Below are positions 22,848-38,900 of a stretch of DNA of 64,000 bases, in pieces; position 1 is the stretch's first letter; each line of letters starts with the position of its first letter. A model generated the notes under the pieces. That model was not told the origin of the DNA, did not search any database, and saw only the letters and a list, made by a program, of their open reading frames with translations. Both the position numbers and the translations under genes were made by a program. This stretch comes from Planctomycetota bacterium (GTDB lineage Bacteria; Planctomycetota; UBA1135; UBA2386), in assembly GCA_016794425.1 (NCBI GenBank), contig JAEUHR010000023.1, forward strand, positions 62,001 to 126,000, in the 5' to 3' direction.

Positions 22848-24110
22848 ATGACCGAGACGCCACGCCACGATTCCCCGTTCGCCAAGCAGGTCGCCGCCTT
22901 CTGCCTGCAGCAGGCCACGCAGTCGCAAGCGAAGCGCGCCGACTTCCCGAGTTCGCCGCTGTGGGCCGGAGTCGCGAAGACCGGCACCGCGCTGTGGCTG
23001 GACACCGGCGACGTCGACGCGGCGCGCGAGCTGTGGGTGCGCGAGTTCACGGCGCTGACGACCAACAACACGCTGCTGAACAAGGAAGTGCAGAAGGGCA
23101 TCTACGACCAGCTGGTGCCGGCCGCGGCGAAGCTGGTGCAACAGGCCGACCCGAAGGCCGACCGCGCGCGCGTCGTGCAGGAGATCGCGTTCGTGCTGAA
23201 CGCCGTGCACGGGCTGAAGCTCGTGCGCACGTTCGACGCCGACGTCTCGGTCGAACTGCACACGGCGGTCGCCGACGATGCCGAGGCGAGCTACCGCTAC
23301 GGCAAGCGCTTCCACGCGATCTGCCCGGACCGCTTCATCGTCAAGGTGCCGCTGACGCCGTCGGGCCTCCTGGCCGCGCGCCGGCTGCACGACGACGGCA
23401 TCCGGATCAACTTCACGCTGGGCTTCTCGGCGCGCCAGAACTGGCTGATCGCCGCGCTGGCGCAGCCGACCTGGTGCAACGTGTTCATGGGCCGCATCAA
23501 CGCGTTCGTCGCCGACAACAAGCTCGGCGACGGCATCAACGCCGGCGAGAAGGCGACGCTGGCCAGCCAGCGTGGGCTGCGGCGCCAGGGCGGCTCGGTG
23601 CGCCAGATCGGTGCGTCGATGCGCAACGGCCAGCAGATCGCCGACCTGCTCGGCCTCGACGTGTTCACGATGCCGACCGCCGCCGCGAAGGAGTTCGTGC
23701 AGAAGAAGCCGGACCCGGCGACGCTGAAGAACCGCACCGCCGACGACCCGAAGGTCACGTTCGCGGCCGGCGTCGATGCCGCCGCCGACCGGCTCGAGGT
23801 GTTCTGGACCGTCACGCCGCAGTTCGAGGCCGCCGCGGCCGCGGCCGGCAAACTCGACCCGAAGACCGCTACGGCGAAGGACGTACTGGCGGTGCTCGCC
23901 AAGCACGGCGCCGGCGACCTGTTCCCGCAGTTCACGGCCGCCGAGGCGCAGAAGGTCACCAAGGAAGGCAAGATCCCGGTCTACGCCAGCTGGAAGGACC
24001 GCGTGCGCGCCGGCACCGCGAGCTGGGACGGCGTGCTGACCGCGGCGGCGCTGGCATCGTTCACGCAGGACCAGCAGGCGCTCGACGACCGCATCGGCAA
24101 GCACCTGTAG
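22848..24110 (+). CDS. Transaldolase family protein
   Basis: 420 residues. The TIM-barrel motifs of transaldolases are present: LDTGDVDAARELW at the first strand, TTNNTLLNKEV, the Schiff-base lysine in DRFIVKVPLTPSG, and INFTLGFSARQN. Typical enzymes move a dihydroxyacetone unit between sugar phosphates in the pentose phosphate pathway. This one has about 100 extra residues compared with E. coli TalB, mainly at the C-terminus, so it belongs to a longer, less-studied subfamily and its substrate is not certain. ATG 22848 lies 15 nt after CATGAT. The start divergent from the BamE-like gene leaves 102 bp for both promoters. Confidence 0.88.
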   Translation: MTETPRHDSPFAKQVAAFCLQQATQSQAKRADFPSSPLWAGVAKTGTALWLDTGDVDAARELWVREFTALTTNNTLLNKEVQKGIYDQLVPAAAKLVQQADPKADRARVVQEIAFVLNAVHGLKLVRTFDADVSVELHTAVADDAEASYRYGKRFHAICPDRFIVKVPLTPSGLLAARRLHDDGIRINFTLGFSARQNWLIAALAQPTWCNVFMGRINAFVADNKLGDGINAGEKATLASQRGLRRQGGSVRQIGASMRNGQQIADLLGLDVFTMPTAAAKEFVQKKPDPATLKNRTADDPKVTFAAGVDAAADRLEVFWTVTPQFEAAAAAAGKLDPKTATAKDVLAVLAKHGAGDLFPQFTAAEAQKVTKEGKIPVYASWKDRVRAGTASWDGVLTAAALASFTQDQQALDDRIGKHL

Positions 24111-24129
24111 CCCCGCGGAACCACTGCGC

Positions 24130-24135
24130 TACGGT
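24130..24135 (+). promoter_or_regulatory. Putative -10 element (TACGGT) of the 2086-residue protein gene
   Basis: GCTACGGTTGCG lies about 119 nt upstream of the ATG at 24255, giving a much longer leader than elsewhere in the window. Confidence 0.25.
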
Positions 24136-24159
24136 TGCGTTCGGCCGCCGCCTGCCACG

Positions 24160-24222
24160 GCGCGCGCCCGCCGCGGACTCGGCCGATCGTCCAGGATCCA
24201 CTGAGCCGCGACGGGCGCGCGC
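24160..24222 (+). repeat. Inverted repeat in the leader of the 2086-residue protein gene
   Basis: GCGCGCGCCCG (24160-24170) is complementary to CGGGCGCGCGC (24212-24222), giving an 11-bp stem with a 41-nt loop. It could stabilise the mRNA 5' end or affect translation. Given the GC content, chance is not excluded. Confidence 0.4.
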
Positions 24223-24254
24223 TCGTTGCCAAGGCTCGCACCGGACCCACCGCC

Positions 24255-27200
24255 ATGAACGCACCGCGCCACCGCGCCGCTTCCCTGCTCGCTCTCGCCG
24301 CCCTCTGCGCCAGCCTCGCCGCCCAGGGCACCCCGATCGGTTTCGAGGAGACCTATGCCCTGGCGCCCGACCGCGCCGCCGCGGTCGCGACGCTGATCCC
24401 GGGCACCGACGACTGGTACTACTACCACTGCCGCGAACGGCTCGATGCGCGCGACTTCGCGACCGTGCGGCAGGTGCTGCCGGCCTGGATCCAGCGGCAC
24501 GGCCGCACGCAGCGCACGATCGAGATCGAGAACCGCGAAGCGCTGCTGTCGTTCGGCGACGACCCCGAGCGCACGTGGACGTTCCTGCGCGACCGACTCG
24601 GCCTGCGCTTCGACCACCAGCGCGTGGTGCCCGGCGAACGCGCCGAACTGCCGTCGCGGCTCGACCCGGCGTTGCTGTCGCACGCGGTGCTGACCGAGCG
24701 CGCGCTGCAGCAGCACCCTTCCGACACCGACGGCTTCACGGCGCGCGCGCTGCCCGCGCTGGCGCAGACCGAACTCGACGGCGACCGGCTGCGCAGCCTG
24801 CTGACGCGCCTGCAGCGGCCCGACGTCGACAACCTGCCGGCGCTGATCGTGCGCGACCTCGACCACCGGCAGAGCGGCGGCTTCGGCTCGCTGCCGATCC
24901 ACGGCGAACTGCGGCTGGCGCAGCTCGAGGAGTGCGTGCGGCTGCGGCCGAGGCTGCTGCAGGACCCGCGCTTCGTCGACGCGTGGCTGCAGCGCATGGA
25001 ACCGACGCAGGACGTCGACTGGCGCCGCGACCCGACCGCGCGGGCCGCGGAACTGCAGCGGCTGTGGCAGTTCGCGCAGCGGCTGTCGCCGGCGTTCAAC
25101 TCGCTGAAGGCGCACGTGCTCTACCACTGGCTGCAGCACGACCTGTCGTCGGGCGCGCCGGACCGCGACCGGTTCCTCGCCTACGTGCGGCTGCCGCGCC
25201 GCGGCGGCCCCGTCGCCGAACAGCACCTGCGCCGGCACCAGAACGCCCCGGAGTTCGTCACGCCGCAGCAGGAGTTCCCGACCGGCCTGCCGCCGATCGG
25301 CGACGACGAGGCGCTGCTGCGCCGGTGCCTGCAGCACTTCTTCGCGGCCGAGGACGGCTACGAGAGCTACGCCGAGTTCCTGCCGGCCGACTGGCTGCAG
25401 CGGCTGTTCGCCGAGACCAAGCTGCTGCTCGGCCAGGGTGACCCGGAACGCTGGTACTCGCTGCTGGCCGACCCGGCCGAAGTGGCGCGCCTGGACCAGC
25501 GCGTCGAACTCGAGTTCGCGGCGACGTCGCGCACCGAGTACGGCGGCAACGAACCGGTGACGCTCGAGCTCGACGTCAAGAACGTGCCGGTGCTGCTGCT
25601 GAAGGTGTTCGCGATCGACGCGTTCCGCTACCACGCCGAGAAGCAGCGCGAGGTCGACGCGTCGATCGAACTCGACGGCGTCGTCGCCAACCACGAACAG
25701 ACGTTCCGCTACGACGCTGCACCGATGCGCCGCATGCGGCGCACGTTCGCGCTGCCGATGCTCGCCGAACCGGGCACCTACGTGGTCGAGTTCGTCGGCA
25801 ACGGCATCAGCAGCCGCGCCGTGATCCACAAGGGTCACCTGCGCTGCGCGGTGCGGCCGGCGGCCGGCGGCCACGTGTTCCGCATCCACGACGAGACCGG
25901 TACACCGCGGCGCCAGGCGTCGATCTGGTTCGGCGGCCGCGACTACGCGCCGGACGCCGCCGGCGACATCCTGCTGCCGTTCACGACCGATCCCGGCCAA
26001 CACGCGGTCGTGCTGCACGAAGGCACGCAGTCGGCGCTGCAGACCTTCGACCACCTCGCCGAGAACTACGCGCTGCACGGCGGCGTGCACGTCGAACGCG
26101 AAGCGCTGGTCGCCGGCCGCACGACGCGCCTCTTGGTGCGCCCGCAGCTGCGGCTCGGTGCGCACCCGGTGTCGGTGCAGCTGCTGCAACAGCCGGTGCT
26201 GACGCTGATCGCGACCGACCTCGACGGCATCGCCACGAAGCAGGAGGTGCGCGACCTGCAGCTCATCGACGGCCAGGAGCTCGTGCACGAGTTCACGGTG
26301 CCCGAGCGCCTCAAAGCGCTGCAGGTGCAGCTGTCGGCGACGGTCCGCGATCTGGCCGGCAAGGACGTGCCGCTGGCGACCACCGCGGTGACCTTCGCGT
26401 GCAACGGCATCGACCGCGGCGCCACGACGACCAGCGTGCAGCTGCTGCGCACGCCGCAGGGCCACGTGCTCGAGGCGCGCGGCAAGAACGGCGAGGTCAA
26501 GGCCGGCTTTCCGTGCCGCCTGCAGCTCGCCCACCGCGACTACGCCGAGCCGATCGAAGTCACGCTGCAGACCGACGCCGACGGCCGCATCGAGCTCGGC
26601 ACGCTGCCGGGCATCGACACCGTGCAGGTGCACGGCACGGGCTTCGCCTGCAGCTTCTCGCTGGCGACCCGCTCCTGCCGCCTGCCGACGGTGCTGCACG
26701 GCCTCGCCGGCGAGACGCTGCGGTTGCCGTACCAGGGCACGGCGCCGCAGCCGACGCGCGCCGAGTTCTCGCTGCTCGGCTGGGAACGCGACGAGTTCGC
26801 CCGGCTGGCGCTCGCCGACGGGTTCGTCGAACTGCGCGGCCTCGAACCGGGCGACTACCAGCTGACGCTGCACGAGACCGGCACGCAGATCCCGGTGCGC
26901 ATCACGCGCGGCGGCCGCGACGGCGGATGGCTGATCGGCCGCGAGCGCGTGCTCGAGGCCGGTTCGGCGTCGCCGCTGCAGCTGCGCTCGCTGGCGCTCG
27001 ACGCGACCGGCCTCTTGATCCGCGTCGCCAACCCGACCGCCGCCACGCGCGTGCACGTCGCGACGACGCGCTTCCTGCCAGCGTTCCCGCTGTTCGACGA
27101 CCTCGGCGGCGCGCCGTCGCGGCCGCCGGTCGCGCTGGACACGGCGCCGATCGAGAGCAGCTTCCACGCCGGCCGCCAGCTCGGCGACGAGTACCGCTAC

Positions 27201-30200
27201 GTGCTCGAGCGCCGCTTCGCGACCAAGTACGCCGGCAACATGCTGCCGCGCCCGAGCCTGTTGCTGAACCCGTGGCAGCTCGACGAGCAGTCGTGGAACT
27301 CCGCGGTCGGCCTCGGTGGTGGCGCGGGCGGCAAGTACGGTGGCCGTGGTCGGCGCCGCGCCGGCGGTCACCCAGGGCCGGCACCGGGCGCGCCGCCGGT
27401 CGACGTCGGCGCCGCCGGCGAGTTCGCGAACCTCGACTGGCTGCCGCGCACGGCGCCGCTGCTGGCCAACCTGCGGCCCGATGCGGACGGCGTCGTGCGC
27501 GTGCCGGCCGCCGAACTCGGCGACGGCCAGATCGTGCACGTGCTGGCGGTCGACGGCGACCAGGCCGTGCACGACACCGCGCTGCGCGCCGAGGCGCCGC
27601 TGCAGCCGCGGCCCCGCCAGTTGCGCGAGGCCCTCGACGCGACGCGCCACTTCGTCGAGCAGAAGCGCATCGAGTTCGTCGCCGCCGGCGAGACCGCCGT
27701 GCTGCCCGACGCGCGCTCGGCGCAGGTCGAGGTCTACGACTCGCTGGCCAGCGTGCACGGGCTCCTGGCGACGCTGTGCAGCGACCCGGCGCTGTCGCGG
27801 TTCGCGTTCGTGCTGCAGTGGCCGCTGCTCGACTCTGCGCAGAAGCGCGCCCGCTACGCCGAGAACGCGTGCCACGAGCTGCACTTCTTCCTCTGGCAGA
27901 AGGACCGCGCGTTCTTCGACGCGGTCGTGCGGCCGCTGCTGGTCGACAAACTCGCGAAGACGTTCCTCGACCACTGGCTGCTCGGCGACGACCTGCAGCG
28001 CTACGTCGAACCGTGGGCGTTCGCGCAGCTGAACCTGATCGAACGCATCCTGCTGGCGCAGCGGCTCGACGAACAGGGCCGCGCCGCGATCGCCCGGTCG
28101 GTGCGCGAGCTGCTCGAACTGCGGCCGGTGCCGCCGTCGACGCTCGACGCGCTGTTCGACCTGGCGCTGAAGGCGCAGCAGCTCGGCACCGAGGGTGACG
28201 CGCAGCTCCTGCTGATGCAGAAGGTCGTCGACCGCGGGCCCGGCGACACGATGCCGCCGCAGCCCACCGCCGCGGCGCCGGCCCCGGCCGAGCGGCAGGC
28301 CTTCGACGACCGCAGCGAGGAGATGGGGAAGGACAAGAAGGCCGACGCCGACGAACCGGCAAGGAAGCCGGAGGCCGAGGCGAACGAGGTCGCCGAGGAG
28401 ATCCAGGCCCTGGGCGACGAGCTGAAGCAGCGCGGCGCGGCCAAGCAGCTCTGGCGCGCGGTCGAGGCCACGCGGCTGCGGATCGAGAGCGACTACTGGC
28501 GCCGCACGCCGCTGCAGACGACGCCGGACGTGGTCGCGCCGAACCGCTTCTGGCGCGACTACGCGACCGCGCCGGCCGGCCGGCCGTTCGCGTCGACCGC
28601 CGTGGTCGAGGCGCACGGCAGCTTCCTCGAGGCGATGTTCGCGCTGGCGGTGCTGGACCTGCCGTTCGCGGCGGGCCGGCACGAGGTGACCGCCGACGGC
28701 GACCGCCGCACGCTGCGCGCCGCGACGCCGCTGCTGCTGGTGCGCAAGGAGGTCACCGCGACCGAAGCCGCCGCCGACGTGCCGCCGCTGCTGGTCGGGC
28801 AGAACCTGTTCCGGCTCGACGAACGCTACCGCTACGAGAACGGCGAGCAGCGCGATGCCTTCGTCACCGACGAGTTCCTGGTCGACACCGGCTACGGCTG
28901 CCAGGTCGTGGTCACCAACCCGACGTCGCAGCGGCGCACGGTCGCGCTGCTGCTGCAGATCCCGGCCGGCGCGCTGCCGCTGAACTCGGGCTTCTGGACC
29001 AAGAGCCGCACCCTCGAGCTGCAGCCGTACGCGACCGCGACCGTCGAGTACGCGTTCTACTTCCCGACAGCCGGCGACTTCGCGCACTACGCGGTGCAGG
29101 CCGCCGAGGCGGGCGCGCTCGCCGCGGCCGCGACCGCGCGCACGCTGCACGTCGTCGCCAGCCCGAGCCGCGTCGACACCGGCTCGTGGGAGCATGTCTC
29201 GCAGCTGGGCAGCGCGGCCGAGGTGCTGGCCCACATCGACGGTGCCAACGTGCAGCGGCTCGACCTGGGCCGCATCGCGTGGCGGCTGCGCGACCGCGGC
29301 TTCTTCGGTGAACTGCTGCCGCGGCTGCGCGCGCGACACGCGTTCGACGCGACGGTCTGGTCGTACGGCGTGCTGCACCGCGACGAAGCCGCCGCGCGCG
29401 AGTTCCTGCAGCACCGCGACGACCTGGTGGCCCAGTGCGGAGCGGTGTTGCAGTCGCCGCTGCTGACGTTCGACGTAGTCGAGCGGAAGCGCTACCAGCA
29501 GCTCGAACTCGACCCGCTGGTGCACGCGCGCGCGCACCGGCTGGGCAGCCGCCGCGGGATCGGCAACGAGCACCTCGCCGCGCAGCACCGCGCCGCGATG
29601 GACCGGATCGGCTACCACGCGCAGCTCGACGCCGACGACTGGATCACGGTCACCTACCTGCTGCTGCTGCAGGACCGGGTCGAGGAAGCGCTGCAGGCCT
29701 ACGCGAAGATCGACGCCGCGCGCGTCACGACGCACCTGCAGTACGACTACCTGACCGCCTACGCGGCGTTCTTCACCGGCGACCTCGATCGCGCGCGCCG
29801 CACCGCCGAACGCCACCGCGACCACCCGGTCGCGCACTGGCAGCAGCGCTTCATCGAGGTGCTGGCGCAGCTCGACGAGGCGCAGGGCCGGCCGAGCCCG
29901 GGCCGCGGCGACCAGGTGCCGACCGACCTCGCGGCCGCGGCACCGTCGCTCGAGCTGGCGCTCGAGGGCCGGCGCGCGACGGTCGCCTGGCGCAACCTGC
30001 CGCAGTGCGAAGTGCGCTTCTACGAGCTCGACGTCGAGTTCGCGTTCTCGGCGCGGCCGTTCGCCAGCGACGACGGCACGTCGGCAGCCTACGTGCAGCC
30101 GATCCTGACCCGGACCCTGGACCTGCCCGCGGACCAGCGCGAACTGACGTTCGACCTGCCGGACCGCTTCGCGCAGAAGAACGTGCTGGTCGAGGTGCGC

Positions 30201-30515
30201 GGCGCCGGCCTCGTGCGGTCGCAGACCTGGTTCGCGAACGCGCTGCAGGTGCGGTTCCTCGAGAGCTGGGGCCAGGTCGCGGTCAGCGAGCCGGGCACCG
30301 GCACGCCGCTGCCGAAGGCCTACGTCAAGGTGTTCGCGAAGCTGCCCTCGGGGCAGGTCCGCTTCCACAAGGACGGCTACACGGACCTGCGCGGCCGCTT
30401 CGACTACGCATCGCTGTCCGACGATCCGAACGCCGGCGCGGTGCGCTACGCGGTGCTGGTGCTCGACGACCAGCGCGGCGCAGTGATCCGCGAACTCGCG
30501 CCGCCCACGCGCTGA
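24255..30515 (+). CDS. Giant secreted multidomain protein of unknown function (2086 residues)
   Basis: A signal peptide (about 1-23, ASLAAQ) starts at ATG 24255; an in-frame TTG at 24135 would bury it. Residues about 30-400 are helical. From about 415 (TEYGGNEPVTLELDVKNVP) come several beta-sandwich-like units that resemble alpha-2-macroglobulin MG domains in general pattern, but no GCGEQ thioester motif is seen. A Gly/Arg-rich linker lies near 1020-1040 and a charged Lys/Glu/Ala-rich linker near 1350-1395. A TPR-like helical part (about 1790-1880) precedes a C-terminal beta region with the conserved-looking HKDGYTDLRGRFDYASLS. It probably works in the periplasm or at the cell surface. I do not recognise a named family. 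Confidence 0.8.
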   Translation: MNAPRHRAASLLALAALCASLAAQGTPIGFEETYALAPDRAAAVATLIPGTDDWYYYHCRERLDARDFATVRQVLPAWIQRHGRTQRTIEIENREALLSFGDDPERTWTFLRDRLGLRFDHQRVVPGERAELPSRLDPALLSHAVLTERALQQHPSDTDGFTARALPALAQTELDGDRLRSLLTRLQRPDVDNLPALIVRDLDHRQSGGFGSLPIHGELRLAQLEECVRLRPRLLQDPRFVDAWLQRMEPTQDVDWRRDPTARAAELQRLWQFAQRLSPAFNSLKAHVLYHWLQHDLSSGAPDRDRFLAYVRLPRRGGPVAEQHLRRHQNAPEFVTPQQEFPTGLPPIGDDEALLRRCLQHFFAAEDGYESYAEFLPADWLQRLFAETKLLLGQGDPERWYSLLADPAEVARLDQRVELEFAATSRTEYGGNEPVTLELDVKNVPVLLLKVFAIDAFRYHAEKQREVDASIELDGVVANHEQTFRYDAAPMRRMRRTFALPMLAEPGTYVVEFVGNGISSRAVIHKGHLRCAVRPAAGGHVFRIHDETGTPRRQASIWFGGRDYAPDAAGDILLPFTTDPGQHAVVLHEGTQSALQTFDHLAENYALHGGVHVEREALVAGRTTRLLVRPQLRLGAHPVSVQLLQQPVLTLIATDLDGIATKQEVRDLQLIDGQELVHEFTVPERLKALQVQLSATVRDLAGKDVPLATTAVTFACNGIDRGATTTSVQLLRTPQGHVLEARGKNGEVKAGFPCRLQLAHRDYAEPIEVTLQTDADGRIELGTLPGIDTVQVHGTGFACSFSLATRSCRLPTVLHGLAGETLRLPYQGTAPQPTRAEFSLLGWERDEFARLALADGFVELRGLEPGDYQLTLHETGTQIPVRITRGGRDGGWLIGRERVLEAGSASPLQLRSLALDATGLLIRVANPTAATRVHVATTRFLPAFPLFDDLGGAPSRPPVALDTAPIESSFHAGRQLGDEYRYVLERRFATKYAGNMLPRPSLLLNPWQLDEQSWNSAVGLGGGAGGKYGGRGRRRAGGHPGPAPGAPPVDVGAAGEFANLDWLPRTAPLLANLRPDADGVVRVPAAELGDGQIVHVLAVDGDQAVHDTALRAEAPLQPRPRQLREALDATRHFVEQKRIEFVAAGETAVLPDARSAQVEVYDSLASVHGLLATLCSDPALSRFAFVLQWPLLDSAQKRARYAENACHELHFFLWQKDRAFFDAVVRPLLVDKLAKTFLDHWLLGDDLQRYVEPWAFAQLNLIERILLAQRLDEQGRAAIARSVRELLELRPVPPSTLDALFDLALKAQQLGTEGDAQLLLMQKVVDRGPGDTMPPQPTAAAPAPAERQAFDDRSEEMGKDKKADADEPARKPEAEANEVAEEIQALGDELKQRGAAKQLWRAVEATRLRIESDYWRRTPLQTTPDVVAPNRFWRDYATAPAGRPFASTAVVEAHGSFLEAMFALAVLDLPFAAGRHEVTADGDRRTLRAATPLLLVRKEVTATEAAADVPPLLVGQNLFRLDERYRYENGEQRDAFVTDEFLVDTGYGCQVVVTNPTSQRRTVALLLQIPAGALPLNSGFWTKSRTLELQPYATATVEYAFYFPTAGDFAHYAVQAAEAGALAAAATARTLHVVASPSRVDTGSWEHVSQLGSAAEVLAHIDGANVQRLDLGRIAWRLRDRGFFGELLPRLRARHAFDATVWSYGVLHRDEAAAREFLQHRDDLVAQCGAVLQSPLLTFDVVERKRYQQLELDPLVHARAHRLGSRRGIGNEHLAAQHRAAMDRIGYHAQLDADDWITVTYLLLLQDRVEEALQAYAKIDAARVTTHLQYDYLTAYAAFFTGDLDRARRTAERHRDHPVAHWQQRFIEVLAQLDEAQGRPSPGRGDQVPTDLAAAAPSLELALEGRRATVAWRNLPQCEVRFYELDVEFAFSARPFASDDGTSAAYVQPILTRTLDLPADQRELTFDLPDRFAQKNVLVEVRGAGLVRSQTWFANALQVRFLESWGQVAVSEPGTGTPLPKAYVKVFAKLPSGQVRFHKDGYTDLRGRFDYASLSDDPNAGAVRYAVLVLDDQRGAVIRELAPPTR

Positions 30516-30524
30516 GGCCGGCGG

Positions 30525-30632
30525 CTACGAGCCGCCGGTGTCGAGCGGGGCACCGTTGCCGGCGCCCTTGCTCTTCTTCTTGCCGGGCTTCGCTCCGGGC
30601 CTGGGCCGACCGGCCCGAGTGCCGCAGCCTTG
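30525..30632 (-). other. In-frame open extension beyond the UGA of the TPR protein gene
   Basis: Directly after the TGA of the gene at 30633-31235 the same frame stays open for 35 codons to a TAG at 30525-30527. The end of this stretch reads PGAKPGKKKSKGAGNGAPL, and third positions of the last ~21 codons are nearly all G or C, as in real genes here. A Lys/Gly/Pro-rich tail is common on Bat-operon TPR proteins. It may be a readthrough extension, a recent stop mutation, a sequencing error, or chance. Confidence 0.4.
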
Positions 30633-31235
30633 TCACTCGCTCGGCAGCGGCAGGCCCTGCAGATCCTCGATCTCGAGCCGCGACAGCCGGATCGCGGCCT
30701 CGAGGTCCTGCTGGTGCGCCGCGGCGACCGCGCCGTCCGCGGCCTGCTCGGCCAACAGCCGGTAGTTCTGCCGCGCGGCTTCGATCTCCGGCTCCCATTG
30801 CTCGCGCGTCAGGCCTTCGAGGCGCATCAGCCACGTCGTGTAGAACTGCGCCCGTGCCAGCTGCTGCCGCGCGTCGGCCAGCAACGTCGGATCGGCGCTC
30901 GGCTGCTGCTCGAGCTCGGCGACCATCGCGCCGAGCTCTTCGCGCGCGGTCGGCAGTCCGCTGGCCAGCATGCGCGCCTTGTTCAGCTCGAGCCGCGTGC
31001 GGTCGAACAGGAACCGCATCGGTCCGTCCGCCAGCGACGCCGGCAGCAGTTGCAGCGCCTCCTCGTAGCGCTTCGCCGCGTCCCGCCAGTCACCGTCCGC
31101 GGCGGCCGCGGCAGCGGCGACCAGCACGGCATCGGCATCCTCGAGCGCGACGAGGTCCTGGCCTGGTCCTTCGTGGAACGCCCACGCGCCGATCGGCAAC
31201 GCGAGCCAGCCCACCAGCAGCAGGTTCCGAATCAT
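30633..31235 (-). CDS. Exported TPR-like protein of the Bat operon (BatC-like)
   Basis: 200 residues. An N-terminal signal or membrane segment (about 1-19) precedes helical repeats; ADGDWRDAAKRYEEALQLLP is a recognisable TPR unit (about 47-66), and the rest forms helices with Ala/Leu/Arg heptads. It is the last gene of the MoxR/vWA cluster, in the place where BatC-type TPR proteins are found. A 101-bp gap and TAGACT at 31281-31286 separate it from the upstream vWA gene, so it may also have its own promoter. See the entry on the open frame after its UGA stop. Confidence 0.7.
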   Translation of the reverse strand: MIRNLLLVGWLALPIGAWAFHEGPGQDLVALEDADAVLVAAAAAAADGDWRDAAKRYEEALQLLPASLADGPMRFLFDRTRLELNKARMLASGLPTAREELGAMVAELEQQPSADPTLLADARQQLARAQFYTTWLMRLEGLTREQWEPEIEAARQNYRLLAEQAADGAVAAAHQQDLEAAIRLSRLEIEDLQGLPLPSE

Positions 31236-31280
31236 GGGGGTCTCCGTGACGGGCGTCCCGGGGTGCCGGGAAGCCCGGGC

Positions 31281-31286
31281 AGTCTA
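31281..31286 (-). promoter_or_regulatory. Putative -10 element (TAGACT) of the BatC-like gene
   Basis: GATAGACTGCCCGGG on the minus strand, 45 nt upstream of ATG 31235, similar to the element before the 14-repeat propeller gene. Confidence 0.3.
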
Positions 31287-31336
31287 TCGGCTCGCAGTCG
31301 CCCGTGGGCGATCCGGTTCGGTTCCGCGGCGGCCGG

Positions 31337-32311
31337 TCACGCCGCCCGCACCTCGACCGGTACCCCCGGCCGCGCCCGGGCGCCGAACCGGTGCAGCAGC
31401 ATCGGCACCAGCGCCAGCACCACGCTGCCCAGCACCACCGCCAGCAGCGCGTATTCGCGCCGGGTCAGCCGTTCGATCAGCGGCTTGCGCGCGTCGGCCG
31501 CCGCGGCGGCGAGCACGTCGCTCGGCACCTGCCGCTTGTTGCCGTTGTGGAACTCACCGCCGAGCCGCACCGCGACCTGGCGCAGCGTGCTGGCGTCCTG
31601 GCGCGACTGGTGGCCGGCGATGAACTTGCCGGTCACGTGGTCGCCGACGCCTACGACCAGCGTGCCGGCGATCGACGGCGGCAGCTCGGGCATGCCGGTG
31701 GCCGGCACCGTGTCGCCGTCGCTGACCACCACGAGCATCGCGCTGCCGACGCGCCAGTGCTTGGCGATGCGCGCCGCTTCGGCGATGCCGTCGAACAACT
31801 TCGTGCTGCCGGTCGGGAACGCAAAGCGCATGTCGACCTGCGCCAGCAGGTGGCGCACCAGCTCGATGTCCTTGGTGTCCTCGACGACCGGCTTGGCGCC
31901 GTTGTAGGTCGCGATCACGGTGATCTTGAACCTGCCGATCGGCACGCGCGCGAACAGCGACTCGATCAGGTCCTGCGCGCGCTCGGCACGCGTCTGGTCG
32001 CCGTTCGGTCCCGCGTCGCGCAGGTGCATGCTCGGCGACACGTCGTAGACCAGCACCAGGTGGCGCCACTCGGCCTCCGGCACCTCGTCGGACTCGTGCA
32101 CGCGCGGCTCGATCAGCAGCAGCGTCGTCAGCCCCCACGCGAGCCCGCCGAACGCGGCCGCGCGCAGCCACGGCACCGCCGCCACCCACGGCGCCGGCCG
32201 CGCGCCCGGACCGAACAGCAGGTGCGCGTAGCGCGCGAGCCGCCGGCGGTGCAGCAGTTCGCCGAGCGCCGCCAGCAGCAGCGCGCCGAGCGCGGCGATC
32301 TCGGCTACCAC
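31337..32311 (-). CDS. Membrane vWA-domain protein (BatB-like)
   Basis: 324 residues. Two hydrophobic segments near the N-terminus (about 1-20 and 48-68) and one near the C-terminus (about 290-310) enclose a von Willebrand factor A domain. The MIDAS metal site is DVSPS (the DxSxS motif) with further ligands in the TGSTKLFDG and VVSDGDT segments. vWA domains of this kind bind partners through a divalent ion. The GTG start overlaps the end of the upstream vWA gene by 7 bp, which implies coupled translation. Role by context: part of an envelope complex served by the MoxR ATPase. Confidence 0.88.
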   Translation of the reverse strand: MVAEIAALGALLLAALGELLHRRRLARYAHLLFGPGARPAPWVAAVPWLRAAAFGGLAWGLTTLLLIEPRVHESDEVPEAEWRHLVLVYDVSPSMHLRDAGPNGDQTRAERAQDLIESLFARVPIGRFKITVIATYNGAKPVVEDTKDIELVRHLLAQVDMRFAFPTGSTKLFDGIAEAARIAKHWRVGSAMLVVVSDGDTVPATGMPELPPSIAGTLVVGVGDHVTGKFIAGHQSRQDASTLRQVAVRLGGEFHNGNKRQVPSDVLAAAAADARKPLIERLTRREYALLAVVLGSVVLALVPMLLHRFGARARPGVPVEVRAA

Positions 32312-33216
32312 GGCGTGTACCTCAGCCCGAGCTGGAACAGGCCGTAGACCGCGAGCAGCACGAGCCCGGCAAGCGCGAACGGCAGGAACCAGTCGACCAG
32401 CTCGGCGATGCCCTGCTCGAGCTTCGCCTTGGTCATCCGGTCGATGTGCTCGAACACCTGCTTCAGCGCGTTCGTGTCGCCCGGGTTGAACACCTCGCCG
32501 CCGGTCAGCCGCGCGAGGTTGACGATCGCCCCGTTCGCCTCCTGCTCCTGGATGTTGACCGCGAACAGCACGATGCCGTCGCCCTTCAACTTCTTCGCGA
32601 TCGTGATGTCGTTGCCGTTGTCGAGGTCGGAGCTGAATCCGTCGGTGACCAGGATCAGCAGGCGGTCGCCTTCGCTGCGTTCGGCCAGCACCTCGCGGCA
32701 GCCGAGCACCGCGCGGCCGATCTCGGTGCCGCCGAACGCCGGCGGCGCGTTCTCGGGCCGCATGAACGGCACCGCGCAGCGGAACGCCGACGGATCGCTG
32801 GTCAGCGGCACCCAGTGCAGGAAGTTGTTGCCGAAGAACGTCAGACCGAACGAGTCGCCGGTGCGGTAGTCGAGGAACTCGTTGATCGCCGCCATCGCGG
32901 CGTCGTAGCGGTTGCCGGCGCCGAACTTCGCGACCATCGAGCGGCTGATGTCGACGCAGAACTGGATGTTGGTCAGCACGCGCTTCTGCTTCGGTGCCGC
33001 GAGTTCCTGCGGCAGCGCCAGCAGCAGCACCGCGACCGCGGCCAGCAGCGCCGGCAGCGACTCGCCGACGCCGAGCAGCCCGCGCACGAGGCGCCCGGCG
33101 CCGCGGCCGCCGTGGTCGAACGGCAGCGCCGTGCGCCGCGCCTGCCGCTGCCAGACCCAGAACAGGTGCAGCAGCGGCAGCACCAGCAGCAGCAAGAGCC
33201 AGGGTCTACCGAACAC
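32305..33216 (-). CDS. Membrane vWA-domain protein (BatA-like)
   Basis: 303 residues. Two N-terminal membrane helices (about 4-22 and 53-72), a vWA domain with the MIDAS motif DISRS, a Thr in FGGTEIG and the VTDGFSSD segment, and a C-terminal membrane helix (about 278-297). The arrangement matches BatA/BatB proteins. The GTG start at 33216 overlaps the end of the upstream gene by 11 bp. The MIDAS is complete, so metal-dependent binding is likely. Paired with the similar protein encoded next to it, as in Bat operons. Confidence 0.88.
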   Translation of the reverse strand: MFGRPWLLLLLVLPLLHLFWVWQRQARRTALPFDHGGRGAGRLVRGLLGVGESLPALLAAVAVLLLALPQELAAPKQKRVLTNIQFCVDISRSMVAKFGAGNRYDAAMAAINEFLDYRTGDSFGLTFFGNNFLHWVPLTSDPSAFRCAVPFMRPENAPPAFGGTEIGRAVLGCREVLAERSEGDRLLILVTDGFSSDLDNGNDITIAKKLKGDGIVLFAVNIQEQEANGAIVNLARLTGGEVFNPGDTNALKQVFEHIDRMTKAKLEQGIAELVDWFLPFALAGLVLLAVYGLFQLGLRYTPW

Positions 33217-34018
33217 GCGCCACCTCTTCGAAGTCGGCCGCGGACACCGAGCGGTACGGCGCCAGCAGCGCCGCCACGTCGAACGACGCCGGCGGCTCGG
33301 GGCGGTGCAGCCACGCCTCCACCTGCCGCAGCAGCGCGCCGGCCTCGGCATGCGCGCGGATCGCGACGATCGCGGCATCGGCGTTGGCGGTGCGCAGGCC
33401 GAGTTTCGCGCGCCAGAACGCCACCAGCAGGCGTTCGAGTTCGGCCTTCCCAGCGTCGTCGGCGGCGCCGGTCGCCACGGCCTGCACCAGCGGTCGCAGC
33501 CGGTCCGCGAGCGTCGGCTGCACCGTCGCGACGGCACGCGCCCGGCGCCAGCGCCGGCCGACGAACAGCACTGCCAGCAGGCCGACCACCCAGAGCACCC
33601 CGGCGACGATCTGCAGCGTCGAGTAGCCGGACAGCCGCGGCAGCGCGCCCGGCGCCGGCGCGGCGGGTTCGAGTTCGCCCGGCGGCAGCACGCTGGTGAC
33701 CGTGACCTCGATCGGCGGCAGGTCGGCGGCAGCGCTGCCGTCCTTGCGCGCGAGCCAGCGCGCGAGGTCGTAGCGCCCCGGCGCGAGGCCGTACCACTCG
33801 AGGTCGTAGCGGAAGCGGTCGCCGTGCGGCCGTGTCGCCAGCAGGCGCACGACGATCGGCGTCGTGTGGTCGACCGCCGCCGGCTCGAGTTCGCCGCCGG
33901 GCAGCACCAGTTCGTCGATGCGCGCCCGCATGCCGACCGAAGCCGAGCGCATGTCGCGCGCCTGCGCCGCCAGCGCACCGGCCAGCAGCAGCGGCACGAG
34001 CCACCGCGAATGCGGCAT
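33206..34018 (-). CDS. Exported single-pass membrane protein (DUF4381/BatD-like)
   Basis: 270 residues. A signal peptide (about 1-20, GALAAQA) leads to a beta-rich periplasmic domain of about 120 residues, a membrane helix (about 147-168, LQIVAGVLWVVGLLAVLFVG) and a cytoplasmic helical tail. This layout and position between DUF58 and vWA genes match the BatD or DUF4381 proteins of MoxR operons, though sequence identity to either family is not evident by eye. ATG 34018 shares its first base with the DUF58 stop codon (TGATG). Confidence 0.7.
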   Translation of the reverse strand: MPHSRWLVPLLLAGALAAQARDMRSASVGMRARIDELVLPGGELEPAAVDHTTPIVVRLLATRPHGDRFRYDLEWYGLAPGRYDLARWLARKDGSAAADLPPIEVTVTSVLPPGELEPAAPAPGALPRLSGYSTLQIVAGVLWVVGLLAVLFVGRRWRRARAVATVQPTLADRLRPLVQAVATGAADDAGKAELERLLVAFWRAKLGLRTANADAAIVAIRAHAEAGALLRQVEAWLHRPEPPASFDVAALLAPYRSVSAADFEEVARVR

Positions 34019-34931
34019 CACCGCGCCCCCCGGCCGGCCAGGCCCCGCGCGCGCAGGAAGTGCCGCAGCCGGTGCGCGAACGGCTGGTCGGTGCGGATCC
34101 GCAGGTGGTCGACGCCGCCGCGGCGCAGTTCGGCGTCGGCGTGCGCCGCGTCCAGCAGGTGGCTGCGGCCGTGCACGACCAGCGCGCGGCCGGTCTCGGC
34201 CTCGCTGGCGCGCACGAAGCCGGCGCCGCGCAGCGTGATCTCGGCCGGATCCTGCAGCTGCAGCACGACGACCTCGTGCTGCTGTGCGAGCAGCGCCGCC
34301 GCGTGCGCGGCACCGGGTTCGTGCAGGTCGGTCAGCAGGAACACCAGCGCGCGGCTGCCGAGCGTCGGCCGCAGTTCGGCGAGCCGCCGCGCCAGCCGCG
34401 TCGACTCCTGGAAGCCGTAGCGGCGCAGCTGCAGCAGCCACTGCAGCACCTGGTCCTTCGCCAGGCTCGGTTCGATGCGCAGGTCGCGCGAACCGGCGCC
34501 GAGCACGCCGACCGGGCTGGTCCGGTCCAGGCACGCGAGCGCGAGACCGCCGGCGATGTGCAGCGCGAGCTCGTACTTGCTGAGCGCGATCGACGACACC
34601 ACCATCGACGCCGAGGTGTCGATCACGAACCACGCCGGGATGCGCCGCTGCGCCTCGTACTGCTTGACGTGCACCTTGCCGCTGCGCGCGGTCACGCGCC
34701 AGTCGATCGACTTGATCGGATCGCCGGGCTGGTAGACCCGCGACTGCACGTAGTCGATGCCCGAGCCGAGGAAGCGCGAGCCGTCGAGGCCGTAGGCGAG
34801 GTCGTCGGCGAGCCGCCGGATCGCGATCACGAACTTGCGCGCGGCCAGCGGTTCGACCTTGCGCAGCAGCCCCGGCAGCTCGCGCTCGTGCGCGAGCCGG
34901 CGGCCGGCCCGTTCGCTTCGCGGCGTCACGG

Positions 34932-34935
<4 letters not shown>
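34018..34935 (-). CDS. DUF58 domain protein of the MoxR operon
   Basis: 305 residues, soluble. The DUF58 signature RVYQPGDPIKSIDWRVTAR lies near residues 66-85, followed by a vWA-like fold with DTSASM in the MIDAS position and LLTDLHEP later. DUF58 proteins nearly always sit next to MoxR ATPases and are thought to be their adaptors or targets. The ATG at 34935 overlaps the moxR stop by 4 bp (ATGA), and the stop overlaps the next gene by one base, so the five central genes appear to be translated as a coupled set. Confidence 0.93.
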
Positions 34936-35933
<998 letters not shown>

Positions 35934-35965
35934 GGCGATGCGGGGCGTTGGTCGGGTCGGGTTCG

Positions 35966-38900
35966 TCAGCCGATGCGGCGGATCCACTCGGCGGCCACGG
36001 CGGCGAGGTCGAGCGTCGGGTCTTCGGCGCGGCCGAAGTGGCACGCCTCGATGCGTTCGATCGCGGCGCGCAGGTCGCGGCGGCCGCCGTCGTCGAGCCG
36101 GCCGTGGCGCTCGGCGCGGTAGAGCACCTCGAGCACCGTGAACGGCGTCACGTGCGCCGGCATGCGCAGCAGCGGCGGCGCGACCGCGGCCGCGGCACCG
36201 TGGCGGCGCGCCAGGAAGAACCAGGCGCCATAGCCGGCCGCGGCGCCGGCGACCAGGAACCAGGCCCAGACCGGATTGCCGGGCCGGTGGCCGCCGGCCA
36301 GCACGACCTCGGCCGCCACCGTCTCGAGGTCGGCGTCGTTGTAGCGCTGGTAGACGACGTCGACGCCGTCGCGCACCGGCTTGCCGAACACGAAGCTGGC
36401 CGGGCGGCTGCCCTCGCTGGCCGGCGTCAGCGACAGCAGCCAGACCCGTTCGGTCTCGACGGTCTGCTGGTCGTCGGCGAACCGCACCACCGACGCGCCC
36501 TGGTCGTCGCGCTTGTCGACGCGGAAGCCCGGTGCGTCGACGCGCAGCAGCGCGTCGAGGTCCGGCACCAGCCCCTTGGCGCTGGCCTTGACCTCGAGCA
36601 CGACCTTGCCCTCGTCGGCGCGCCGTTCGTCGAGCAGCTGCACGACCTTCAGGTCCGAGCACGGCCGCGGCCCGCCGTCGCTGGACGCGTCGATCGCGAC
36701 CGGCGACGAGCCGATCGGCAGCACGACGTAACCGCTGGTGTCGAGGAAGTCGAAGTCGAGCTTCAGCGTCGGGATCCTGTCGACCTGCGGCCCGCGCGCG
36801 CGCAGCAGGAGCCACGCGTACGGCGTCGTGCGCCAGCCGGGCACGCCGCTCGGCCGCGACGTCATCTGGTCGCCGTTGAACGTCACCGACAGCACCTCGA
36901 AGCTCTCCTGCAGCGTCGCGGTGACGGCGTCCTGGAAACGGTCGCGGTAGTCCTCGAGCGGCCGCCCGTAGTTCCAGGCGTAGCTCATGTTGTTCTGGTT
37001 CTGCGCGTACTTGGCGAAACCGCCGCTCTCGCGCTCGATCTCGGCCGTGTGCACGATGTCGAGCCGCACGCCGAACGGCGCGGTGCCGACCGCGGTCGCG
37101 CCCTCGACCACGGCCTCGAGCCGCAGTTCGCGCGTCAGGTCGGCGTAGTAGTCCCAGACCTTCTTCGCCTCGGCGGCCTGCGGGTGGTCGCCGACGATCG
37201 CGAAGCCGGCCTCGAGATAGCGGTGCTTGATCTGCGGCTTGACCGCCGACATGCGCGTGAACAGCGCGTTGGCGAACATGCCCAGGTGCCGTTCGCGGCT
37301 GCCCGCCGGCAGCGCGTCGATCGCCGCGCGGATCCGCGGCAGCTGGCTCTCGGCCAGCACGGTCTCCTCGTCGACGGCACCGAGGTCCGAGGCGCCGAGC
37401 GCGGCGTAGAACCACACGTCGAACGGCCGCAGCGTCTCCTGGTCGAGCCGCAGGTCGCCGGCGGTCTCGGCGTAGTGCTGCGCCGCCTGCGCGAACAGCT
37501 CGAACGCCGCCTTGCGCGCGCCCGCGAAGTCGCTGCTGCGGCCGAGTTCGCGCGCGAAGTTGTTGCGGTCGTGCAGGATCGAGCCGACGACGGTCAGCAG
37601 CGCCCAGTGCCGGCCGCGCTCCTGCAGCGCGCGCTGCGCGATCTCGAGCGCGGTGTCGTAGCCCTGCGCGACCTCGAGCAGCGTCTCGCGCTGCGAGCGC
37701 TTGGTCTTCGCGTCCTCCTGCACGTCGGGCCGGCGCCAGACCGTCGCCAGGTTCGTGCGCATCGTGCCGAGCAGTTCGCCGAGCAGCACCGGGTCGAGCT
37801 CGGCGACGTCGCCGAACACCTTCTCGATCGTCTCCAGCCGATAGACCTCGGCCTTGCTGTGCGCGGCGACGAACGCCTCGGTCAGCAGCGTCTCGTCGAC
37901 ACGGCCGATCGGCAGCTGCCGCAGCCGTTCGACCCAGCTGCCGAGCTCCTGCAGGTTGCGTTCCTGCTTGCTGCGCGTCAGCGGGATGCCGCTCGCGCGC
38001 TGGTCGAACCCGTAGATGAACATGTACGAGTTGGTGCGGCGGCTCGTGTTCGGGTTGTTGTTGCGCGTCCAGACGCGCAGGAACTCGTCGGCCAGCTCCT
38101 TGGCCTTGCGCGCGTTGATCGTCGCCAGCTGCTCGATGAACGGGAACGCGCGCTCGGGCTCCGCGAGCTTCAGGAACAGCTGTGCCGACACGGTCGCGAA
38201 GTGCGGTTCCAGTGCGTCGTCCAGCAGCTCGGCCCATGCCGAGCCGGGCTGCGCCTCGATCAGGTCGACCGGTTCGACCGGCTTCACCGGTCCGCCGCCG
38301 CCGCGGCGGCGACTGGTCCAGAAGATGTTGCCGAACTCGTCGCGCTCCATGACCTGGCCCATCGAGTCCGACTGCGAGTTCGAGCAGCTGTAGACCGCTT
38401 CGCCGATCCAGCCGGCGGCGAGCAGTCCGAGCGTCGGCCGCCACTGGTCGGCGAGCTGCGGCGCGACCCGCAGCAGCGCGTCGACCGCGGTCTTCTGCAG
38501 CTGCAGCGTCTTCGCGCGGTAGTCCGGGTCCTGGGCCCGTTCTTCGAAGCCCTTGGCGACCTGCCCGCCGATCGTCGCGACGATCTCCATGCCGCGTTCG
38601 GGCCGCTGCGTGAAGCTGTCGGCGAGCCACTGCGGGCCGAGCCCCTCACGCACCTTCGGCGCGAGCTCGACGGCGCGCAACAGCGCCTCGGTCTTGGCTT
38701 CGGCCTCGACCTCACCCTTCGCCAGTGCCGCCTGCGTCGCGTTCCACGCCTGCTCGAGCCAGTCGAGGTCCTTGTCCTTCGCGAACCGCGCCATGCTGCA
38801 GCGCGCCAGCAGGTTCAGCCCCTCGCGGTCGTTCGCCGCTTCGGCCTCGGCCAGCGTCGGCAGGAACGGCGTCAGTTCGTCCTCTTCGCCGATCGCGGCC

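Follow-up and report, generated by a model that had tools for sequence, protein, structure and literature searches.

A probably secreted planctomycete protein of 2086 residues that fits the CAGE family and whose beta domains resemble those of TPR-flanked alpha-2-macroglobulins

The stretch of Planctomycetota DNA analysed here (64,000 nucleotides; hereafter the window) carries on its plus strand, at positions 24255-30515, an uninterrupted open reading frame (ATG at 24255, stop codon at 30513-30515) for a protein of 2086 residues. The best overall explanation of this protein, to which we assign a probability of roughly 0.7, is that it is a bacterial CAGE protein, viz. a secreted hollow container holding other proteins non-covalently, a role that we infer. 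The identity of the protein, with membership in the CAGE family being very probable, is the strongest part of this explanation and the mechanism of a trap is its weakest part. A common origin with the domains of alpha-2-macroglobulins (A2M) is also likely, and what appears to be new here is a tie, seen between sequence profiles, to ten TPR-flanked alpha-2-macroglobulins, three of them verified with Pfam, which are referred to below as TPR-A2M.

A conserved gene and its protein

A preliminary description of this DNA had considered the frame to be a real gene and the largest one in the window, and both statements stand. The frame is the longest listed for the window, the GC content at its three codon positions is 0.76/0.48/0.95, 19 further aligned homologues share 43-70% identity with the protein, and the rows of the homologue search in related genomes are free of internal stops; because of this conservation among homologues, 24255-30515 is taken as a real gene. 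An antisense open reading frame of 2079 residues (24129-30368) was rejected by the codon-position filter. The host genome comprises 5.4 Mb in 64 contigs. The signal peptide proposed earlier is, when the sequence is read by eye, a likely one of 22 residues, with an Arg-containing N-region, a hydrophobic core and an SLA/AQG site, and the hydrophobic N-terminus and the AQG site recur across many homologues. The conserved C-terminal motif was likewise recovered, as KDGYTDLRGRFDY at residues 2039-2051 lies within the best-conserved stretch of the C-terminus; a literature search for a peptide of this motif gave no match.

The earlier statement that no family is recognised is correct for Pfam and NCBIfam, in which nothing scored above the cut-off, but not for the literature, where the CAGE family fits by its published description (PMC12485934). 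In Pfam scans of 43 family members (20 at E up to 1 and 23 at E up to 0.5) the best match was only CarboxypepD_reg (E 2.6e-4), none of the members matched MG2, A2M, BRD or TED, and one showed a bMG3 match with an E of 0.043. PDB sequence searches with the protein, with the 20-member alignment (A1) and with an alignment of 54 rows (A8; the query, 17 of the 19 other rows of A1, viz. all except L005 and L011, and 36 new ones) gave chance matches at E 1.9 or worse and no significant chain, and no relative of the protein was found in the plasmid and viral-contig searches.

Agreement with the CAGE family

CAGE is a hollow homotetramer of about 1 MDa, present in protists and Planctomycetota and shown for Tetrahymena and Dictyostelium, which has been termed a novel architecture with unresolved function (PMC12485934). 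Its subunit consists of 15 domains without Pfam matches, and A2M is the top fold hit for both domain 4 and domain 6; bacterial sequences make up over two thirds of its homologues and are most prevalent in Pseudomonadati, especially in the PVC lineages, and most bacterial members carry signal peptides of 21-22 residues (PMC12485934). The 2086-residue protein is, by this description, like CAGE (Tetrahymena CAGE1, I7MLD7_TETTS, about 2,300 residues, and Dictyostelium AbpF) in that it is a large chain without Pfam domains, in which helical and beta blocks of similar order and size alternate at the same relative positions and beta domains resemble those of A2M (in a low-confidence model), and it shares with the bacterial members their occurrence in Planctomycetota and the likely signal peptide.

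The agreement in layout can be expressed in numbers. With hand-set breakpoints, the blocks of the 2086-residue protein start at residues 416, 1164, 1474, 1644 and 1919, and those described for CAGE1 at 444, 1244, 1565, 1751 and 2014, its final domain ending at 2215 (PMC12485934). As fractions of the mature chain (23 residues removed), the starts are 0.190/0.553/0.703/0.786/0.919 as compared to 0.200/0.562/0.707/0.791/0.909 for CAGE1, so that they differ by no more than 0.010 of chain length, and none of 2,000,000 random sets of breaks was as close. The two low-complexity linkers noted earlier were confirmed at about residues 1008-1055 (Gly/Arg-rich) and about 1330-1395 (Pro/Ala/Glu/Lys-rich), and the described CAGE1 stretches 1021-1151 and 1414-1519, which separate parts of domain 8 and parts of domain 11, respectively, fall by our arithmetic at about the same relative places. 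The parts of the gene, all on the plus strand, are as follows (AF2, AlphaFold2; GC3, GC content at the third codon position).

24255-30515, plus: whole gene for the CAGE-like protein, 2086 residues (open frame, GC3 0.95, homologues)
24255-24320, plus: likely Sec signal peptide, residues 1-22 (reading of the sequence; recurs in homologues)
24324-25493, plus: helical region at the N-terminus, residues 24-413, in the layout position of CAGE1 domains 1-2 (low-confidence AF2 model)
25497-26114, plus: beta region of macroglobulin type, residues 415-620, in the layout position of CAGE1 domains 3-4 (hhalign to TPR-A2M)
25773-26684, plus: beta-sandwiches in tandem, residues 507-810, in the layout position of CAGE1 domains 4-6 (VIA-align, Foldseek, low-confidence model)
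27177-27275, plus: conserved GDEYRY..RR..GN..RP.LLLNPW segment ahead of the linker, residues 975-1007 (conserved columns of A1 and A8)
27276-27419, plus: Gly/Arg-rich linker, residues 1008-1055 (GGGAGGKYGGR module at 27315-27347, aligned to that of the TPR-A2M protein L075)
27420-27737, plus: segment with mainly beta structure, residues 1056-1161, placed at MG7/CUB by collinearity only (low-confidence model; no significant profile match of its own)
27744-28652, plus: helical region split by a linker, residues 1164-1466, thioester-domain position (low-confidence model; no significant profile match of its own)
27870-27881, plus: CHEL motif, residues 1206-1209 (conserved among 54 homologues)
28242-28439, plus: second low-complexity linker, residues 1330-1395 (sequence; lowest conservation in A1)
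28767-29174, plus: beta domain, residues 1505-1640, CAGE1 domain 12, MG10/Transglut_C-like position (start of the collinear hhalign path)
29184-29924, plus: helical region towards the C-terminus, residues 1644-1890, in the layout position of CAGE1 domains 13-14 (low-confidence model)
29922-30512, plus: C-terminal macroglobulin-like region, residues 1890-2086 (hhalign; KDGYTDLRGRFDY at 30369-30407)

The residues before 416 show no strands in the low-confidence AF2 model and have no profile match of their own. Residues 1505-1640 gave a Transglut_C match below the cut-off (E 0.028) and no hhalign match as a separate block, and residues 1644-1890 are collinear with the TPR of TPR-A2M in the path described below, which is not significant for this block alone.

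Profile link to TPR-A2M

A C-terminal alignment (A2) was searched against 246 genomes sampled across the phylum. At E 0.001 matches were obtained in 61 of these genomes; in 46 of them the match was strong (best E no worse than 3.1e-34), and in the other 15 it was weak (E 4.8e-9 to 9.5e-4) and led to other proteins. Ten of the latter were fetched, and they constitute the TPR-A2M: all ten have frames of 2618-2911 residues, the three that were scanned against Pfam all show MG2, A2M, A2M_BRD and TPR above the cut-off (one of these three also TED and bMG10, and another bMG10 just below it), and the profile of the ten (A6) matches solved A2M structures with a best E of 9.1e-55.

When A1 was compared with A6 by hhalign, residues 1501-2051 formed one collinear path (E 1.8e-11), residues 415-620 were matched at the N-terminal side of TPR-A2M (E 5.2e-8) and the C-terminal block at their C-terminus (E 5.3e-14); blocks 1060-1320 and 1500-1640 of A1 showed no hhalign match to A6. 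The best path between A8 and A6 runs from end to end, with low confidence in its middle part, and has a score of 138.2 (E 3.5e-13), as compared to 29.7 for the reversed control and 22.4-23.8 for five block shuffles. Taken alone, segment 1890-2086 of A8 matches the C-terminus of TPR-A2M with an E of 2.5e-15 (0.23 when reversed), and segment 415-620 matches their C-terminal side with an E of 1.3e-9 (0.21 when reversed). The profile-profile search of separate blocks was productive for 415-620 and 1890-2086 but not for the other blocks, and the middle segments gave no significant match to tiles of TPR-A2M either. In an alternative path between A8 and A6 residues 186-672 pair with residues 2246-2813 of TPR-A2M, and we read the non-collinear pairing as a possible internal repeat, with a helical part and a beta pair at both ends.

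Computation on the sequences supports a homology between the beta domains towards each end of the protein and those of the planctomycete TPR-A2M, with the parts in collinear order, and on account of this the protein looks like a thioester-less branch of, or a sister group to, the macroglobulin superfamily. The TPR-A2M (e.g. L075, 2683 residues) are like the CAGE-like protein in the collinear order of helical and beta blocks, in the profile matches at 415-620 and 1890-2086, and in the Gly-rich module that is present in 4/10 of them. They are unlike it in possessing MG2, BRD and A2M Pfam domains (in 3/3 scanned; TED in 1/3) and recognisable TPRs, in the CVEQ motif of 6/10, and in their longer frames. 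This comparison suggests that CAGE may share ancestry with the macroglobulins, rather than representing a novel architecture. The words "thioester" and "TPR" do not occur in the main text of PMC12485934, and the literature searches returned no further paper with the CAGE complex as the subject of its title or of the opening of its abstract.

In macroglobulins, MG6 is interrupted by the bait region and TED is inserted in CUB. The domain list of CAGE1 shows domain 8 interrupted by a linker and the helical domain 11 inserted in the beta domain 10 (PMC12485934). By analogy, it may be inferred that domain 8 of CAGE1 corresponds to MG6 with the bait region, and domain 11 within domain 10 to TED within CUB.

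Fold comparisons

The earlier proposal of macroglobulin-like beta domains, which the hhalign matches bear out, also agrees with fold searches using a low-confidence model. Of the predicted structures, the N-half model finds A2M-superfamily folds; the C-half model had no match better than E 0.31, and its rows include unrelated folds and weak ones of TPR type. In the Foldseek search with the N-half model the top five rows all belong to the A2M superfamily (best E 6.1e-6), and by our own count so do 32 of the best 50, the rest being FnIII arrays and others. With VIA-align, in which a Z under 8 may reflect a common arrangement only, the first 30 of the best 50 rows are A2M, TEP or complement chains, and the top rows for residues 507-810 are TEP1, E. 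coli A2M and C5, with Z up to 9.8. Residues 723-803 superpose on NIE-MG1 of E. coli A2M (Z 9.2, 2.5 Å, 74 residues) and residues 721-808 on MG4 of C5 (Z 8.4, 2.7 Å, 86 residues). These residues are at the place of CAGE1 domain 6, which by the published description is also A2M-like.

Thioester position, CHEL motif and Gly-rich linker

The thioester motif is missing, as stated in the preliminary description: CxEQ does not occur anywhere in the 2086-residue protein, it is found in the TED-like region of 0/54 homologues, and elsewhere in the chain in 4/54. Among the TPR-A2M, C-V-E-Q is present in the TED of 6/10, and the other four (L079, L080, L083 and L084) are without CxEQ at the thioester position. 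Judging from these sequences, loss of the thioester may have happened more than once. A CHEL motif at residues 1206-1209 is conserved with H and E in 54/54 and C in 49/54 homologues. It was considered as a degenerate thioester motif and rejected, as it does not fall on CVEQ in the profile alignment, the spacing is different, and S or G replaces Cys in 5/54; it was also rejected as a metalloprotease HExxH motif, as the residues after HE do not fit.

In the collinear path the Gly/Arg-rich linker sits where macroglobulins carry the bait region, and its GGGAGGKYGGR module aligns, inside the end-to-end path, with that of L075. The module, in its common form WNSAVGLGGGAGG[KR][YF]GGRGGGR (window positions 27276-27361; L121-L150, L159-L188), also turns up in unrelated proteins of planctomycetes. 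There are 44 occurrences of the exact pattern in 27/41 genomes and one of the reversed pattern. When 30 carriers were sorted by eye, 18 had a membrane-anchored N-terminus and a cyclase-type toroid, 5 were CAGE-like, 3 were TPR-A2M, 2 were YfbK-type VWA proteins and 2 were unassigned; the two toroid carriers that were scanned matched SQHop_cyclase_C just under the cut-off (E about 2e-5), and both YfbK-type VWA proteins were scanned. A wider pattern search gave 32 rows, 30 of which had loci and were examined, with matches in 20/119 genomes and one match for the reversed pattern. It yielded a VIT-VWA carrier of the module (L182), and three of its rows (L159, L171 and L173) appear to be ordinary Gly-rich proteins that lack the context of the module.

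Proposed role and alternative explanations

If the protein is a CAGE member, its signal peptide would direct its export to the cell envelope, where four copies would form a hollow cage of about 1 MDa, as for the Tetrahymena and Dictyostelium proteins. The cage would enclose protein cargo, containing a protein substrate non-covalently, and this containment would perhaps be triggered at the Gly/Arg-rich linker in the bait-region position. The handling of large substrates, proposed in the preliminary description, is by analogy compatible with such a hollow cage. A protease trap in particular is a doubtful, although conceivable, version of this role. A precedent is provided by the thioester-less macroglobulin MagD, which traps a protease non-covalently (PMC5764988), indicating that a macroglobulin without a thioester can still hold a protease.

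Several observations weigh against the CAGE explanation. The AF2 models, made from input alignments of 3 and 4 rows, are poor, with mean pLDDT (predicted local distance difference test) values of 41.9 (residues 24-1012) and 34.8 (1056-2086), and the multi-domain A2M rows of VIA-align superpose at 8-18 Å root-mean-square deviation, most of them at 10-18 Å. In the hhalign comparison with A8, segments 24-415, 600-760, 720-1010, 1056-1330, 1110-1510, 1056-1510, 1500-1645 and 1640-1895 are not significant alone, and the best score of segment 415-620 is obtained with the C-terminal, non-collinear pair of TPR-A2M and not with the N-terminal one. The linker is variable, with the full Gly-rich module in 15/54 homologues. 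All layout breakpoints were set by hand from low-confidence models after the preprint (PMC12485934) was known, and CAGE1 and AbpF were compared by published description and, for CAGE1, by layout, not sequence to sequence. In eukaryotes, where the tetramer was seen, CAGE proteins generally lack secretion signals, unlike the present protein with its likely signal peptide, and the published maps show no cargo density in the cavity (PMC12485934). Lastly, no PDB chain matches the family, although CAGE coordinates have been deposited (PMC12485934); because bacterial BLASTP matches of CAGE reach 1e-50 (PMC12485934), a CAGE chain in the PDB should have matched. We assume that the deposited entries are not yet in the PDB copy searched; if they are, membership falls, and due to this result our estimate for membership has been slightly lowered.

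The possibility that the protein is not CAGE but a divergent bacterial A2M, i.e. a thioester-less, MagD-like Type II protein acting as a periplasmic protease trap through bait cleavage, is considered unlikely. The collinear profile match to TPR-A2M, the A2M-superfamily structures at the head of both fold lists of the N-half model, and the 4/10 TPR-A2M that are also without CxEQ all agree with it, as do the homologous macroglobulin-type beta domains; against it are the 43 members scanned without an MG2, A2M, BRD or TED match, and the layout, since L075 departs from that described for CAGE1 by up to 0.048 and the 2086-residue protein by 0.010. MagD of Pseudomonas aeruginosa is likewise a macroglobulin-domain protein of the envelope that lacks a thioester, but it has about 1,500 residues and is found in complexes with MagA, MagB and MagF, which are encoded in the same operon (PMC5764988), and the Type I A2M of E. 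coli, ECAM/YfhM (structures 4ziq and 5a42), resembles the protein in the macroglobulin-type beta-sandwiches of the fold search but differs from it in having the CLEQ thioester motif and TED (PMC3328433).

A secreted chaperone or storage container, with a CAGE shell and no protease-related role, is given less than even odds. Chaperone, container and protease trap are all offered as speculation by the CAGE authors, who see no obvious enzyme motif (PMC12485934), and no window neighbour recurs beyond the nearest relatives, barring weak matches at one locus; however, this explanation leaves the A2M homology and the linker position unaccounted for, and the lack of cargo in the published maps stands against it as well. 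A scaffold for surface attachment or adhesion, made of beta-sandwiches and helical repeats with no closed shell, has very little probability: FnIII receptors (Foldseek) and an ice-binding adhesin (VIA-align) are also present in the fold lists, but the repeat number usually varies in adhesins, whereas here the length of the chain and the order of its parts are conserved throughout the phylum, and in the low-confidence models a helical part precedes the beta blocks at one end and follows them at the other.

Returning to the CAGE explanation, it is a tentative proposal, held at somewhat below even odds, that the CAGE shell of protists and bacteria descends from TPR-A2M of the Planctomycetota kind; on this view the thioester disappeared, helical walls evolved from the TPR ends, and a variable linker evolved from the bait region. 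If so, the eukaryotic CAGE proteins, including the Dictyostelium actin-binding AbpF, would be macroglobulins that moved into the cytosol. The tie to macroglobulins suggests where CAGE may have come from and offers a mechanism that can be tested, and the TPR-A2M, some of which have an intact thioester motif, provide thioester-bearing relatives with which to compare it.

Distribution among genomes

The genome surveys covered Planctomycetota, and other phyla were reached only through a low-yield scan of named genomes. Among 101 genomes (the host's own and 100 relatives), 58 gave a protein match at E 1e-5 or better; in eight of these (G037, G065, G067, G071, G073, G077, G083 and G097) only the Gly-rich stretch was matched, leaving homologues, some of them pieces at contig ends, in 50/101. 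All 36 further homologue regions contain a frame of about 1,980 residues or more (E 7.3e-137 or better). The named-genome scan revealed two relatives, viz. a Planctomycetota metagenome-assembled genome (L033) with 70% identity and a contig labelled Candidatus Kuenenia (L034) with 61%. Some genomes carry two or more CAGE-like copies (G119:C27, G116:C39, G203:C1 and G034:C52), either adjacent (G034) or farther apart. The host genome also encodes a frame of 1836 residues with MG2 and A2M above the cut-off (L072, G000:C62:40380-42818), indicating that the host has an ordinary macroglobulin besides the CAGE-like protein. Of the 101 genomes, 50 have CAGE-like genes and 54 have genes matched by the TPR-A2M profile A7, 20 having both and 17 neither; the Fisher p of 0.0096 ignores kinship, the A7 matches include A2M frames that are shorter, at about 2,000 residues, and this value is not relied on.

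Gene neighbourhood

In 21 neighbourhoods compared (L033, L189-L208), a transaldolase gene and a gene for 200 residues flank the CAGE-like gene in six (L033, L189-L193), and VWA and DUF58 genes are present in five of these, none having been seen in L192. The full set found in the window at 22980-34935, viz. transaldolase, the CAGE-like gene, the 200-residue gene, VWA, DUF58 and a further frame (within 34932-38630) that we suppose to be a MoxR-type gene, is together in 5/21 (L033, L189, L190, L191 and L193), all near relatives. The other 15 neighbourhoods, two of which (G012 and G016) belong to the same family as the host, show no window genes, except for weak matches to DUF58 and the 34932 frame in L207. 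Elsewhere in the window, two adjacent frames of 730 residues (13599-15791) and 743 residues (15885-18116) lie upstream of the gene for the carbamoyl-phosphate synthase large chain; they have no Pfam match at E 0.01, and both recur in L033.

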